Assembly (NCBI GenBank): GCA_017650925.1
Contig: JAGCDY010000132.1
Location: forward strand, 1 to 44,698
DNA from: a bacterium
GTDB lineage: Bacteria > Auribacterota > UBA3054
Length of the DNA: 44,698 bases
Direction of reading: 5' to 3'
In this document: positions 13,552-19,830 of the stretch, one piece after another
Position numbering within the stretch: the first letter of the stretch is position 1
How the letters are laid out: each line of letters opens with the position of its first letter
Translations under genes and position numbers: made by a program
The notes under the pieces: generated by a model
Told to the model about the DNA's origin: nothing
The model's input: only the letters and a program-made list of their open reading frames with translations
Databases searched by the model: none

Positions 13552-13661
13552 CGTCGCAAAGGGCGGCGTATGCCCCTCGCTCACGGACTACGCGTGCATG
13601 GCCTTGATTAGCGTCCTCCGTGAGTTCGCTTAGGGGCATACGCCGCACTTTGCTTCGTCAC
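13548..13661. repeat. 114-bp imperfect palindrome holding both stop codons of convergent operons, likely bidirectional terminator
   Basis: The outer arms 13548-13577 and 13632-13661 pair over 30 positions with only three mismatched positions. The shared core is GCGGCGTATGCCCCT. After a short asymmetric bulge, a second block pairs CTCACGGA (about 13580-13587) with TCCGTGAG (13617-13624). The central loop has a possible ACGC/GCGT mini-stem. The TGA of the metallophosphoesterase gene (13549-13551) and the stop of the cinA-like gene (13658-13660) lie at mirror positions in the arms. There is no U-tract on either side, so classic intrinsic termination is not assured. Attenuated 3' processing, RNA protection, or a dispersed REP-like element are other options. 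Confidence 0.75.
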
Positions 13662-14392
13662 TTCTCTTTCGCTCTATCGTTTATCGCCGATAGCAGTTGG
13701 TCTCGGCAGGGCGCTATCGCCTCTTCCGAGCTGGAAGTGAACGTCAATTTACAGCGCCATTTGTTGGTCGCTTCGTCCAGTTCCGGATAGGAGCCGATCT
13801 TGACATCGGGGTATTTTTTCTGAGCTTCTTCCATCAGGTCGGCGAAAAGCGTTTCGCCTATCGGGGAAAGGTATTCCAGCGTCACGATGCTTCCCTCTGG
13901 GAGTTCGGGTTCGATCACGTCGAACATCTTGCGCATCAGTTTCGGAACGCCCGGAAAGACGTAGACGTTTTCCATGACAAAGCCGGGGGCGCCGGAAAGC
14001 TCGTTAAGGATGAGGCGACAGCCTTTGGGGAGGTCGGCCATCATGAGCCTCAGATCGTTGATCCTCTCTCCGTAGTAGCCGTTGAGCATGGCTTCGGCGT
14101 CTTTGTTTCTTTCAAGTTCGGTGCCGAAGGCTATGGCCATGGCTTCCCTAGTCAGGTCGTCCGGAGTGGCGCCGATGCCGCCGCAGGAGAAGACTACGTC
14201 GTACGTTTTTCTGTATTCGTTGACGGTCCCAACGATGGTGTCCATTTCGTCTGGGATCGTTATGATGCGCTTTAGATGAACGCCGCGTTGGTGTAGCCTG
14301 GCGGCGATGAAGTTCGCGTTTATGTCCTGGGTGCGGCCCGAGAGGATCTCGTCCCCTATTATGATTATCGCGGCGGTATGATCGTTTGACAT
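13658..14392 (-). CDS. CinA-like competence/damage-inducible protein A (MoCF-binding domain)
   Basis: This 244-residue protein is the MoaB/MogA-like molybdopterin-binding domain found at the N-terminus of CinA. It shows IIIIGDEILSGRTQD at the start, VVFSCGGIGATPDDLT near 66-81 and the NELSGAPGF and VFPGVPKLM segments. The C-terminal nicotinamide-mononucleotide deamidase domain of full CinA is absent. Stand-alone forms are common, and several are thought to hydrolyse ADP-ribose or NAD-derived compounds; the activity here is not established. It starts 2 nt after the stop of the lipoprotein-ANL fusion gene, so the two are coupled. It is the last gene of the dnaE operon and its stop codon is within the right arm of the palindrome. 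Confidence 0.9.
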   Translation of the reverse strand: MSNDHTAAIIIIGDEILSGRTQDINANFIAARLHQRGVHLKRIITIPDEMDTIVGTVNEYRKTYDVVFSCGGIGATPDDLTREAMAIAFGTELERNKDAEAMLNGYYGERINDLRLMMADLPKGCRLILNELSGAPGFVMENVYVFPGVPKLMRKMFDVIEPELPEGSIVTLEYLSPIGETLFADLMEEAQKKYPDVKIGSYPELDEATNKWRCKLTFTSSSEEAIAPCRDQLLSAINDRAKEK

Positions 14393-14394
14393 CT

Positions 14395-16374
14395 TTATCC
14401 CTGCCTTATTATCGTGACGGTGCCGTCTTTGTTTTCCCTGGCGATGGTGTCGGTTACGTACCAGCCGTTCCTGAAGACTGCGTCGTCTTTTTGGTCTTTT
14501 TTATAGAAGCTCTTGATGACGAAGGGTCCGCGGAAGGCCAGACGGCCCTCCTCGCCTTTTTTGAGAGCCTTTCCGTCTTCCCCTAGTACTTTCACCTGGA
14601 TGTCGGGAAGGGGGGCTCCCTGGGCTCCGCAGGCGTTCCTGAGGGCGCTGGACAGGAGAACAATGCCCGCGGTCTCCTTCCTGGCGTAGCCGGTCATGAT
14701 CTGGGCCCCATACATGGGAGCGAAGAAGTAATACGTCTTCTCCTTGACGTCGTCAAGAATGTAGATGCGCTTGATCTTTATGCCGGTCTTTTCCTTGAGG
14801 CCGGAAAGGAGCCTGACGTTGGGAAGATTCAGGCGCTTCATGAGCTTCGCCAGCTTCACGCGCTTAAGGCCGCCTTCCTCAAGAATGAGCTTCCTGAAGC
14901 GCGAAGCCATGGCTCTGGCAAAGCTTCTGTCGGTAAGGAGGATCGTGATGCCTTCCTTTCTCAGGGCCTCGAAGCACTGTTCGGGATCGCGGCTCTCGGC
15001 GTTGACGACGCAGGAGGCGGTCACGAGCGGCATGAAGAGCGTGAAGGAAAGCGACTCTATGCTATAAGGCGGGAAGGTCGCGAAGAGAACGTCCCTGGCG
15101 TCCGGCAGCATCGTCTGGGAAAGTGAGAACGCCTGGGAGAGTATCTGGCCGTGGGTGAGGATGACGTCCCTCTCTCCGGGAATGAGGAGCGCCGGATCTT
15201 CCCTGGTCAGAGCCTTGAGCGGCGAAGAGGTCGGCTGCTCGAGCAGATAGTCCGGAAGGATGTTTTTCTCCAGGTCGCCCCTGAGCCACAGAACGCATTC
15301 AAGAGGCAGGCTGAGGAGCAGCATCTCGCTGGCCTCGGACTGGAAGGCTTCGGAAACGATGAGGAAGCCTATTCCAAGCCTTCTCATCGTGTCGGCGAGC
15401 TTCTCGGGGCTCTCCTCGGTGTCAAGGAAAGTTATGACGCCGCCGGCGCCCGAGACGCCTAGGGCCGCGATGTGCCGCCAGCGCCCGTTGGGGACGAGCA
15501 GGGCGACTTTGTCATGCGTCCTCAAGCCCTTGGAGATGAGGTAATGGGAGACCCTGTTGGCGTTGGCCCTGAGCCAGTGGAAGCTCAGCTCTCCGCTTCC
15601 CCTTTCCGTCGCGTCCCTGACGGCCGGAAGCGTGGTGAAAAGCGAACCGGCCCTGTTCATCAGGTCGGGAATGTTGTGCACGTCTCCCGGAACGGGTGCG
15701 GGATCCCTGGGAGCCAGGCGCCTCTTGTTGCGGGCGTATCTCGCGAAGAGGAAAAACAAAAGGAAGCACAGCGCCACGTAGAGCGTTTCCTTCCAGGGCC
15801 AGCGCTCCGGGTAAACGCAGGTGGCGCTGAAAAGAAGCTGCCTGTCGCCCTGAAATTCGGAAAGCTTTATCTTCCTCTTCACCGTTCTCTGGCTGAAGGG
15901 AACGTTGGCGCTCGTTATGTTCCCTGGGAAAGTCTGGGAAAACTCGATCATCCCGTCGCAGGGCAGATTGGCGGCGCTGGTCCCGAGATCGAAACGCTGG
16001 AAGACCGTAAGCCCACTGCTTTTCGCGGAGCAATTGATGGAACGGTGGCGGAAGAAAGGCAGCTGCGCCAGTTCTGTAACGGCGCCCTTGAATTTTATGT
16101 CCAGCGCCAGATGAGAGTTGCTGCTGACAAGGGCGGACCTCAGGAGGGTGACGTTGGCCGTGAAATTGTTGCTGGCCCAGAAAGGCACTAAGAGCAGCCT
16201 TTCCTCCTCAAGGGTGATGTCGGGGTTCTTCTTTAGAAAATCCTCGCTCAGGGCGCAGACTATGTGGACCGTAGCGTTCCCTTCCCTGTCGTAGACCCAG
16301 CTTTCGCGGTAATCGAAGCAAGCGGTCAAGACCGCGGCCGCAAGGATAGCTGTGAAAGCGAGGCGCAGTTTCAT
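14395..16374 (-). CDS. Lipoprotein/transmembrane protein fused to a degenerate adenylate-forming (ANL) domain
   Basis: The 659-residue protein begins with a lipoprotein signal, lipobox L16-T-A-C19. An extracytoplasmic beta-rich domain follows (about 20-190) and then a transmembrane helix (about 196-213) ending in RYARNKRR, so the rest is cytoplasmic. Residues about 240-659 match the large subdomain of acyl-CoA synthetase-like ANL enzymes, for example the HDKVALLVPNGRWR segment and VILTHGQI. The ATP-binding P-loop (normally a Ser/Thr/Gly-rich run before VxLTH) is missing: DPALLIP runs straight into GERDVILTH. The late GWYVTDT motif lacks the usual TGD order. The protein ends at IIRQG, where the C-terminal lid with the catalytic Lys should begin. 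It is therefore probably a non-catalytic binding or sensing protein. It lies between surE and the cinA-like gene with tiny gaps. Confidence 0.7.
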   Translation of the reverse strand: MKLRLAFTAILAAAVLTACFDYRESWVYDREGNATVHIVCALSEDFLKKNPDITLEEERLLLVPFWASNNFTANVTLLRSALVSSNSHLALDIKFKGAVTELAQLPFFRHRSINCSAKSSGLTVFQRFDLGTSAANLPCDGMIEFSQTFPGNITSANVPFSQRTVKRKIKLSEFQGDRQLLFSATCVYPERWPWKETLYVALCFLLFFLFARYARNKRRLAPRDPAPVPGDVHNIPDLMNRAGSLFTTLPAVRDATERGSGELSFHWLRANANRVSHYLISKGLRTHDKVALLVPNGRWRHIAALGVSGAGGVITFLDTEESPEKLADTMRRLGIGFLIVSEAFQSEASEMLLLSLPLECVLWLRGDLEKNILPDYLLEQPTSSPLKALTREDPALLIPGERDVILTHGQILSQAFSLSQTMLPDARDVLFATFPPYSIESLSFTLFMPLVTASCVVNAESRDPEQCFEALRKEGITILLTDRSFARAMASRFRKLILEEGGLKRVKLAKLMKRLNLPNVRLLSGLKEKTGIKIKRIYILDDVKEKTYYFFAPMYGAQIMTGYARKETAGIVLLSSALRNACGAQGAPLPDIQVKVLGEDGKALKKGEEGRLAFRGPFVIKSFYKKDQKDDAVFRNGWYVTDTIARENKDGTVTIIRQG

Positions 16375-16378
16375 TTTC

Positions 16379-17149
16379 TTATTCCGCGATCAGGTCTTTC
16401 AGCCAAATCTTCACTTCTTCCCTGTCCGGGGCGGAGGCGGGATCGGTGCTCAGAGGCGTTACGGAGATGAAGTTCCGTTTTATGGCCAGATAATCGGAAT
16501 TCTCATCCTCGTCGTCCGGCAGGAGCACGCCGCTTATCCAGAAGTAGTCGTTGCCCGAGGGATCGGTCCTGTGAAGGTAGCGCTCGTGGAATTTCGTCTT
16601 GCCAAGCGTTGTAAGCCTGAACCCTTTGATCTCTGAAAAAGGCACGTTGGGAACATTGACGTTCAGGAAAACTCCCCTGGGCGCCTTTTTAAGGTCTATT
16701 TTGGAAAGAAGCTCGGTGGCCGCCTGCGCGCCCGTTTCGAAATGGAACTTGCCATCCAGGGAATCGTCCATGGAAAAGGCGAAGGCCGGAACGCTGAGCA
16801 TTCTCGCTTCGCTGGCAGCCGCGACCGTTCCGGAATAGACGATGTCGGTGCTCAGGTTGGAGCCGGGGTTCAACCCGACCAGAACGCAGTCCGGCTGGTC
16901 GCAGAAGGAAAGCAGGGCGATCTTCATGCAGTCGGCCGGCGTTCCAGTCGCGGCGTAAGCCTTGACGCCTTTTATGAGATCCTTTCGTTTCAGAAGGACC
17001 GGTTCGCGAAGCGTGATGGCGTGGCTTATGGCGCTGCGCTCCCTTTCCGGAGCTATGATCGTCACTTCGTTTTCTTTCGACAAGGTCTCCGCCAGGACCG
17101 TCAGGCCCAGGGAATCGATGCCGTCGTCATTGGAGAGGATTATTTTCAT
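16379..17149 (-). CDS. surE: 5'/3'-nucleotidase SurE
   Basis: This cytoplasmic metal-dependent phosphatase dephosphorylates nucleoside monophosphates and is linked to stationary-phase survival. The 256-residue protein has the SurE metal ligands D8-D9 (NDDG), S39 (ERSAISHA) and N94 (GLNPGSNLSTD), followed by VYSGTVAAA. The length is typical. The start at 17149 overlaps the end of yraN by 23 bp. An extended -10 promoter lies 7 nt before the ATG, inside yraN, so surE and the genes after it could also be transcribed separately as a leaderless message. The usual pcm or nlpD neighbours are absent. Confidence 0.95.
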   Translation of the reverse strand: MKIILSNDDGIDSLGLTVLAETLSKENEVTIIAPERERSAISHAITLREPVLLKRKDLIKGVKAYAATGTPADCMKIALLSFCDQPDCVLVGLNPGSNLSTDIVYSGTVAAASEARMLSVPAFAFSMDDSLDGKFHFETGAQAATELLSKIDLKKAPRGVFLNVNVPNVPFSEIKGFRLTTLGKTKFHERYLHRTDPSGNDYFWISGVLLPDDEDENSDYLAIKRNFISVTPLSTDPASAPDREEVKIWLKDLIAE

Positions 17150-18189: not shown

Positions 18190-19105
18190 ACCACTTGGCC
18201 CACTGCTCGTAAGTGGTGAAGTTCTGACCGGTCTGATCCTGCAGGATGGAGACCGCCATCTGCCTGACCTCGTTGTACTGGCTCAGGAGCCCCTGCTCTA
18301 TTATGGGCTGCAGGGCGTTGTGGCTTCCTTCCGTGTGCAGCTGCTCAAGCAGCGTAAGAGATGTTTCCTGAGTGTCGGCGTCGCCCTGCTTCAGAGCGTA
18401 GTCCAGAGAGGGCATCATGCAGTCGTCGACCAACATGGTCAGCATGTCGAGAGCGTTTTCCCTGACGTCCTCCGAGGAATCGTTGAGGGCCTGCATTATG
18501 ATCTCGTTCAAACTGGCTTCAGGAGTCAGCGTCGCGATGCACTCGAGGGCCTCCTCCCTGAGGTCGGGGTCGGGATCTCTCAGGGCCTTCTCGACTCCCT
18601 CTATGACCGCCGGATCGTCGATGGCCTTCATCGCCTCGACCGCCAACGTCCTGATCTCCTCATCTTTGTCATCGAGCGCTTCCAGAACGGCCGGCATGAC
18701 CATCTTGTCGCCGATCACCGCTATCTGGTTCATCAATTCCAGCTTTCTCTCAGTGGAGGCTCCGCTTCTGAAGGCCGCCGTGGTGTCGTCCACCAGACCC
18801 TTAGTGTCGAAACCTGGAATGGGGTCGCCCTCGGGCACGAACATCACCGCTCGCTCATGCCTGAGCTGCCGCATGGAGATCGTCTCCTCAGCGGCGGCGT
18901 TCGTCAAGGCCGTATCCTGCAAAACGGTGACATTCGGTTTCCGACGCGGGGTCCTGACTTTTCTTTCCGCAACGGTCGTCCTCGGACGGGGCGGTTCTTT
19001 GGTGACCGGCTTCTCACGGTTTCTTAAGCCTAAAAAGATCAAGACGCCCACTATGAGCAGCACTATGATCGTACCTGATAATTTCACACCGTCGCGAGTA
19101 GTCAT
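18170..19105 (-). CDS. Membrane-anchored HEAT-repeat protein
   Basis: This 311-residue protein has one N-terminal transmembrane helix (about 10-27) and a basic Pro/Arg linker (about 30-65). From about 115 to 295 it holds helical HEAT-like repeats with recurring D-x-(D/E)-(E/D)-(I/V/L)-R and A-L-x-A patterns, such as DDKDEEIRTLAVEAM, DPDPDLREEALE and DSSEDVRENALDML. Such solenoids mediate protein-protein contacts; no enzyme motif is visible. The anchor places the repeats on the outer side of the inner membrane if N-in. It overlaps the acyltransferase gene by ATGA and rnhB by 20 bp. The operon context gives no specific role. Confidence 0.7.
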   Translation of the reverse strand: MTTRDGVKLSGTIIVLLIVGVLIFLGLRNREKPVTKEPPRPRTTVAERKVRTPRRKPNVTVLQDTALTNAAAEETISMRQLRHERAVMFVPEGDPIPGFDTKGLVDDTTAAFRSGASTERKLELMNQIAVIGDKMVMPAVLEALDDKDEEIRTLAVEAMKAIDDPAVIEGVEKALRDPDPDLREEALECIATLTPEASLNEIIMQALNDSSEDVRENALDMLTMLVDDCMMPSLDYALKQGDADTQETSLTLLEQLHTEGSHNALQPIIEQGLLSQYNEVRQMAVSILQDQTGQNFTTYEQWAKWYEENRK

Positions 19106-19830
19106 TTGTTTTCTCCTGAATTTCTGACCTCACCTTTGCCGTCCGGCTTCATGCCGGCAAGATTGTCGCCCTGGATCGTGATCTCATCCATGATGCTCTG
19201 AAGCTTTTCACAATAAGGGGTGAGATCCTCCGCGTCCTTCGGTACAACGAAGGGCGTTCCGAAAACTATGTGCACGGTGGCGAAGGGAAGGATTATCATG
19301 CAGCGGTCCCAGGAAGAGGCCCTGTAGCTGAATTTGGCTGAAACGCCCAAAGGAAGGATAGGGATACCCGTGCGCTGGGAAATAAGCACCATGCCGGGCT
19401 CGATCCTCTGCCTCGGACCCCTGGAACCGTCCAGAGCCATGGCTGTATCTTTTCCGGAACGGGTTATTTTCAAAAGGTTCTTTAAGGCGCTGACTCCGCC
19501 TTTGTGAGCCGAGCCCCTCACGCACTCCACTTTGAGAAGATTGAAGTACGAAGCGAGGATGTCGCCGTCCTTGCTCTGCGAGACCATCATCGAAAGCTTG
19601 TCGTAGCCGAACAAGAAATGGTAAATAGCCGGCAAAAGCATCCCTCTGCCGTGCCAGGAACCGAAGATGATGTTCTCACCTCTGTTTTCCCTGTCAAGGT
19701 AGAGCTGGTAGTTCTCCTTGTTGTGGAACTTGAAGCGGCAGGTCTTCAAGTTGATCAGGGTCAGCCAGTAGGCCAGCCTCGGGATGACCTTGAAGCGCAT
19801 GAAGGGTTTTTTAAAGATATTGTCAGCCAT
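19102..19830 (-). CDS. DUF374-family lysophospholipid/lipid A-type acyltransferase
   Basis: The 242-residue protein matches the DUF374 branch of acyltransferases. It has FGSWHGRGMLLP with the active-site His, MVSQSKDGDILA, the VRGSAHKGG segment, LDGSRGPRQRIEPG, and the late SWDRCMIILPFA-VHIVFG block. Members are related to LpxL/KDO-dependent acyltransferases and are thought to act at the membrane on lipid A or lysophospholipids; the substrate is not fixed by sequence. Its ATG is 8 bp after the tatD stop, and an extended -10 box overlaps that stop, so it may have its own leaderless transcript. It is coupled to the HEAT gene by ATGA. Confidence 0.85.
   Translation of the reverse strand: MADNIFKKPFMRFKVIPRLAYWLTLINLKTCRFKFHNKENYQLYLDRENRGENIIFGSWHGRGMLLPAIYHFLFGYDKLSMMVSQSKDGDILASYFNLLKVECVRGSAHKGGVSALKNLLKITRSGKDTAMALDGSRGPRQRIEPGMVLISQRTGIPILPLGVSAKFSYRASSWDRCMIILPFATVHIVFGTPFVVPKDAEDLTPYCEKLQSIMDEITIQGDNLAGMKPDGKGEVRNSGENK

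Follow-up and report, generated by a model that had tools for sequence, protein, structure and literature searches.

The closest described systems to the gene analysed here are the long-chain acyl-CoA/acyl-ACP synthetases of the ANL superfamily (PRK06187; FACL13/FadD13, PDB 3t5c and 5zrn) and LppM (Rv2171, PDB 2nc8), a mycobacterial lipoprotein reported to bind phosphatidylinositol mannoside (phosphatidylmyoinositol mannoside) (PMC6151718). A limited literature search returned neither a described ANL/acyl-CoA-synthetase pseudoenzyme nor a described fusion of a lipoprotein with an acyl-CoA synthetase. In the window, which is the whole 44,698-nucleotide stretch of DNA that was analysed, a lipoprotein and the large domain of an ANL protein are encoded by one open frame of 659 aa (Table 1). 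surE, the fused gene and a CinA/MoCF-type gene are all encoded on the minus strand in this order, separated by just a few bases, and the cinA-type gene begins so close to the fused stop that there is no space for a C-terminal lid. A scan for promoters and terminators gave signals at or near chance level. Four genes upstream of surE, in the order of transcription, lies a DUF374 lysophospholipid-acyltransferase-like gene (window 19102-19830, minus strand).

In six species of the genus the same frame, fused and lidless, lies with surE on one side and the cinA-type gene on the other; it is a true gene, not an artefact. Identity to the protein of the window is 89, 81, 58, 60 and 57% in the five further species where the locus is complete, and a sixth further copy is cut by a contig end. 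All complete copies have the P-loop deletion in common and end within a few residues of each other. One genus member (G003) gave no match to the fused gene, which is uninformative because surE and cinA were also without a match there. Outside the phylum, a pattern-based genome scan, which a distant fusion could escape, returned genus members. The earlier note had described a lipoprotein and an ANL fold on one chain and had suggested looking for the same fusion in related genomes; this architecture holds across the genus, with P-loop and lid lost in all six fused species, and can now be refined to a fusion of genes that are adjacent elsewhere in the order.

Table 1. Coordinates in the window of the fused gene, its parts and its two neighbours.
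Feature	Positions	Strand	Basis or remark
Fused gene, 659 aa, ATG start, TAA stop	14395..16374	-	same frame in six species of genus
Signal peptide, residues 1-18, lipobox VLTA	16321..16374	-	sequence and hydropathy
C19, predicted lipid-modified cysteine	16318..16320	-	invariant in 13/13 homologues
Extracytoplasmic domain, residues 20-190, predicted LppM-like fold	15805..16317	-	AlphaFold2 model, Foldseek
Transmembrane segment, residues ~196-214, predicted N-out/C-in	15733..15789	-	hydropathy, positive charges
Basic linker and fusion junction, residues 215-232	15679..15732	-	alignment with unfused relatives
ANL N-terminal large domain, residues 226-656, catalytically degenerate	14407..15699	-	PF00501, Foldseek
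Deleted P-loop site, residues 399-403, PGERD replaces TSGTTGxPKG	15166..15180	-	deleted in 6/6 fused proteins
LDDV, residues 540-543, at GGAP motif position	14746..14757	-	alignment
A5 motif TGYARKE, residues 561-567, Glu567 kept, Thr lost	14674..14694	-	alignment
VTDT, residues 640-643, replaces KTGD, catalytic Asp lost	14446..14457	-	alignment
surE, upstream neighbour	16379..17149	-	kept across genus and in three other genomes of order
CinA/MoCF-type gene (PF00994), downstream neighbour	13658..14392	-	starts 2 bases past fused stop

By its sequence the N-terminal half is a predicted bacterial lipoprotein, with a signal peptide and a lipobox that is present in all six fused proteins and in all unfused homologues. 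Residues 196-214 reach the hydropathy threshold (1.63 over 19 residues), and the AlphaFold2 models predict a helix at residues 194-220. The 15 residues before this segment contain two K/R and the 15 after it contain five, directly after it comes a basic stretch (RYARNKRR), and the charge difference therefore predicts an N-out/C-in orientation. The segment is short and its hydropathy is just borderline in some members; in the unfused relatives its aligned counterpart is the C-terminal helix, which is stronger (2.2-3.2). At the junction, the intact ANL begins with MPIP and its fused counterpart reads APVP. These results agree with the earlier note, which had proposed a lipobox signal at C19, a transmembrane helix near residues 196-213 and an ANL subdomain facing the cytoplasm.

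The outer domain likely adopts the LppM fold, as judged from a predicted model. Modelled alone, the outer half reached a pLDDT of 80 with AlphaFold2, and the best PDB match of its model was LppM (2nc8; Foldseek E 5.5e-8, probability 1.00, TM 0.46/0.57). In Pfam, LppM (PF21946) was the sole family matched by several members, 6 of 13, with a best E of 0.039 and all scores below the 27-bit cut-off, and a search of the lipoprotein profile against PDB sequences gave no significant match. The search of residues 20-190 against lipoprotein families, as proposed in the earlier note, thus stays below threshold by sequence and finds its match through the model. Within the phylum, the lipoprotein profile matches at strong E-values only in this order. 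A second protein of about 487-493 aa also has sub-threshold LppM matches (E 0.005-0.08) in G000 (G000:C7:19229-19576, L071), G001, G002, G003, G005 and G006.

The C-terminal half has the ANL superfamily fold. Residues 258-624 score 112.4 bits against Pfam AMP-binding (PF00501; E 2.9e-32, cut-off 29.9), and in the whole-protein AlphaFold2 model (mean pLDDT 82, from a shallow alignment of 18 rows) the cytoplasmic half matches ANL large domains in Foldseek, the best when ranked by target length being the N-terminal domain of FACL13 (3t5c/5zrn, TM by target 0.87-0.88). None of the parts expected of an active ANL, that is the P-loop, the Asp of the TGD motif and a lid with hinge and catalytic Lys, was found. 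The P-loop is shrunk to its short remnant ahead of VILTHG, the TGD site reads T-D-T (641-643) with T, V or I at the Asp position in 6/6 fused proteins, and the Pfam scan of the 659-aa protein gave no AMP-binding_C (PF13193) lid match; all six fused proteins stop at the hinge, so that hinge, lid and catalytic Lys are missing. The GGAP motif, the histidine of A4 (LPLNH) and the A5 Thr are lost in all of them as well. Over the large domain, 127 positions are invariant in six intact ANLs; 28 of these are retained, and 75 are missing, in every one of the six fused proteins. Residues kept in every fused member include LTHG His408, A5 Glu567, R615 and T641, in addition to several structural glycines and PN..W. 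The earlier note had read a deleted P-loop before VxLTH, a scrambled TGD and a stop where the lid should begin from a single sequence, and each of these now holds for the whole set of fused proteins. Its view of the domain as a pseudoenzyme is borne out as far as sequence goes, since catalytic residues are lost under purifying selection (see below).

Outside the genus, the two halves are separate genes. Seven genomes from three families of the order (f2, f3 and f4) have a lipoprotein gene with an ANL gene immediately downstream (7/7), and in several of them the two genes overlap or nearly abut. The unfused lipoprotein gene has about 235-267 codons and encodes a C-terminal hydrophobic helix. 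The paired ANL is full length in 6/7, with TSGTTGxPKG, GGAP, GYG.TE, TGD, the hinge and the C-terminal lysine, and the three that were scanned each matched PF00501 and PF13193 above cut-off. Among profile models, those for long-chain acyl-CoA ligases (PRK06187 and others) come closest to the intact ANL, with scores below their own cut-offs. In the remaining genome (G013) two frames together encode the ANL (L081:2921-4596), possibly because of an assembly frameshift. Three of the seven genomes (G011, G008 and G010) have surE beside the pair, and G011 keeps cinA too, past a thioesterase gene. This gene, of the 4HBT type (L008:3900-4307), lies between the intact ANL and cinA and has no counterpart at the corresponding place of the window. 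In family f3 the pair stays together although surE and cinA do not adjoin it, which argues for a functional link between its members. A TPR-repeat protein is encoded after the pair in f3 (L078-L081) and after cinA in G011 (L082); every genome of the order has a homologue of it, in this genus on another contig.

The two-gene state is likely ancestral, a polarity suggested by its spread over three families and by the intact catalytic motifs found there. In the tree, fused and paired ANLs form one group (support 91/84) to which no other ANL of the phylum sample belongs, and the stem that leads to the fused clade (100/100) measures 2.83 changes per site; this placement is moderately supported and, with so long a stem, some attraction is possible. 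No intact paralogue of the paired ANL that could have replaced it was found in the genus, and the other two ANLs of the genome fall outside the paired/fused group. Two separate genes in homologues had been named in the earlier note as evidence against its reading, as a sign of a sequencing frameshift or an assembly fusion. Such homologues do exist, in seven relatives, and they represent the likely ancestral arrangement and not a sequencing or assembly error.

All these data suggest that the gene is probably an inner-membrane fusion of adjacent genes, in which a dead ANL half serves as a cytoplasmic binding or docking module tied to an outer lipid-binding domain. The starting point would have been two adjacent, probably translationally coupled genes, encoding an LppM-like lipoprotein and a cytosolic ANL of the long-chain acyl-CoA/acyl-ACP-synthetase type. 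As separate proteins the two may cooperate: on the outer face of the inner membrane the lipoprotein would bind lipid, and on the inner face it would recruit the acyl-activating enzyme or gate it. The likely ancestral role would be to activate fatty acids at this membrane, where the lipoprotein would act as the enzyme's envelope partner. After fusion, the chemistry would have been lost and the ANL fold retained as a fixed cytoplasmic module for a fatty-acyl ligand or a partner protein. Binding or docking is the simplest reading of a fold that is kept when its chemistry is lost; ATP-free chemistry or a cryptic site would also be compatible with the sequence evidence.

The ANL half is under purifying selection that is somewhat weaker than on the intact enzyme. 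Between species of the genus its dN/dS ranges from 0.13 to 0.37 (Nei-Gojobori); the neighbouring genes span 0.05-0.41, and the intact paired ANLs lie at about 0.11. These ratios are rough given that dS is near or above 1 in many pairs; the closer pairs (ANL-half dS 0.34 and 0.57) gave 0.13 and 0.17. In most pairs no part of the protein has a lower dN/dS than the transmembrane/linker residues 191-232 (0.02-0.15). This constraint, together with the predicted placement of a domain on either side of the membrane and two folds that bind lipids in known families, would fit the signalling between cytoplasm and envelope that the earlier note had proposed, in the form of a one-piece trans-envelope lipid sensor, whose outer LppM-like domain senses an envelope lipid and whose dead acyl-CoA-synthetase fold, across a single helix, binds acyl ligands, nucleotide or partners, the state being relayed in either direction. 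However, no signalling output domain, regulator or regulated partner was seen in the protein or in its conserved neighbourhood, and the motifs by which an ANL holds nucleotide are lost, so we regard such a sensor as possible but rather unlikely.

The same ratios bear on whether the ANL half is a decaying remnant of a read-through fusion in which the lipoprotein part alone matters. The long stem, the loss of most catalytic residues and a dN/dS somewhat above that of intact ANLs are what decay would produce, but the ANL half is free of stops and frameshifts in six species, down to 57-60% identity, the range of dN/dS stays low across it and especially at the junction, and the C-terminal end point is near-identical among members, where an unselected tail of 430 residues would be expected to be truncated. 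The open frames, the selection and the common end point largely refute this explanation, and we hold it to be improbable.

Retention of a binding or docking module also has to be weighed against an enzyme that is still active in some other chemistry, with the ANL large domain working on its own or together with a lid provided in trans. H408, E567, R615 and T641, near the old site, are indeed kept in all members, but the P-loop, the TGD Asp, GGAP, the A4 His and the A5 Thr are gone from all of them, and neither of the two lid domains (PF13193) in the genome is free-standing. One belongs to an ordinary ANL of 553 aa (contig C42) and the other to a frame of 405 aa on C6 that begins at a contig edge but has a YTSGTTG P-loop, a TGD motif and a hinge of its own, and is therefore an ANL cut by the contig and not a free lid. 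A separate lid protein, which the earlier note had considered in combination with an intact ATP site, can thus be rejected, the lid count covering the assembled part of a genome that is about 90% complete, and continued catalysis is very improbable. Lastly, that two genes were joined by a frameshift error or a chimaera, as the two genes of relatives within the order might suggest, has practically no probability left, being refuted by agreement in fusion, deletion and end point among six homologues from separately assembled genomes, whose named records are metagenome assemblies of the ruminant gut, with animal and gut site differing between them.

Among known systems, the fused protein has the large-domain fold in common with the long-chain acyl-CoA/acyl-ACP synthetases and keeps their PN.RW, LTHG and G.L..RG motifs; it differs from them in having no P-loop, GGAP, TGD Asp, hinge or lid, and in being carried on a lipoprotein with a transmembrane segment. 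With LppM it shares a lipoprotein signal and, as far as the predicted model goes, probably the fold of the outer domain, although that domain has no significant sequence match to LppM, and to our knowledge no fusion or pairing of LppM with an ANL enzyme has been reported. Aas-like fusions of ANL, carrier and acyltransferase domains in other families of the phylum (L015, L017 and L024) are relatives of the intact ANL and resemble this locus in a membrane-lipid context, as far as domain content indicates, but they combine a catalytic ANL with carrier and acyltransferase domains and have no lipoprotein part. The nearest likeness is the unfused pair of the same order (L008-L014), which has orthologous halves in the same gene order and differs in consisting of two genes with an intact ANL (split in the one genome mentioned above). 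Side by side, pair and fusion form a series of states within one order, from two genes with a seemingly working enzyme to a single gene in which catalysis is lost and the fold retained. This series suggests that an LppM-like lipoprotein of the envelope and an acyl-activating enzyme of the cytosol are physical partners, in which case the LppM fold, itself poorly understood, would acquire both a partner and a biochemical setting.
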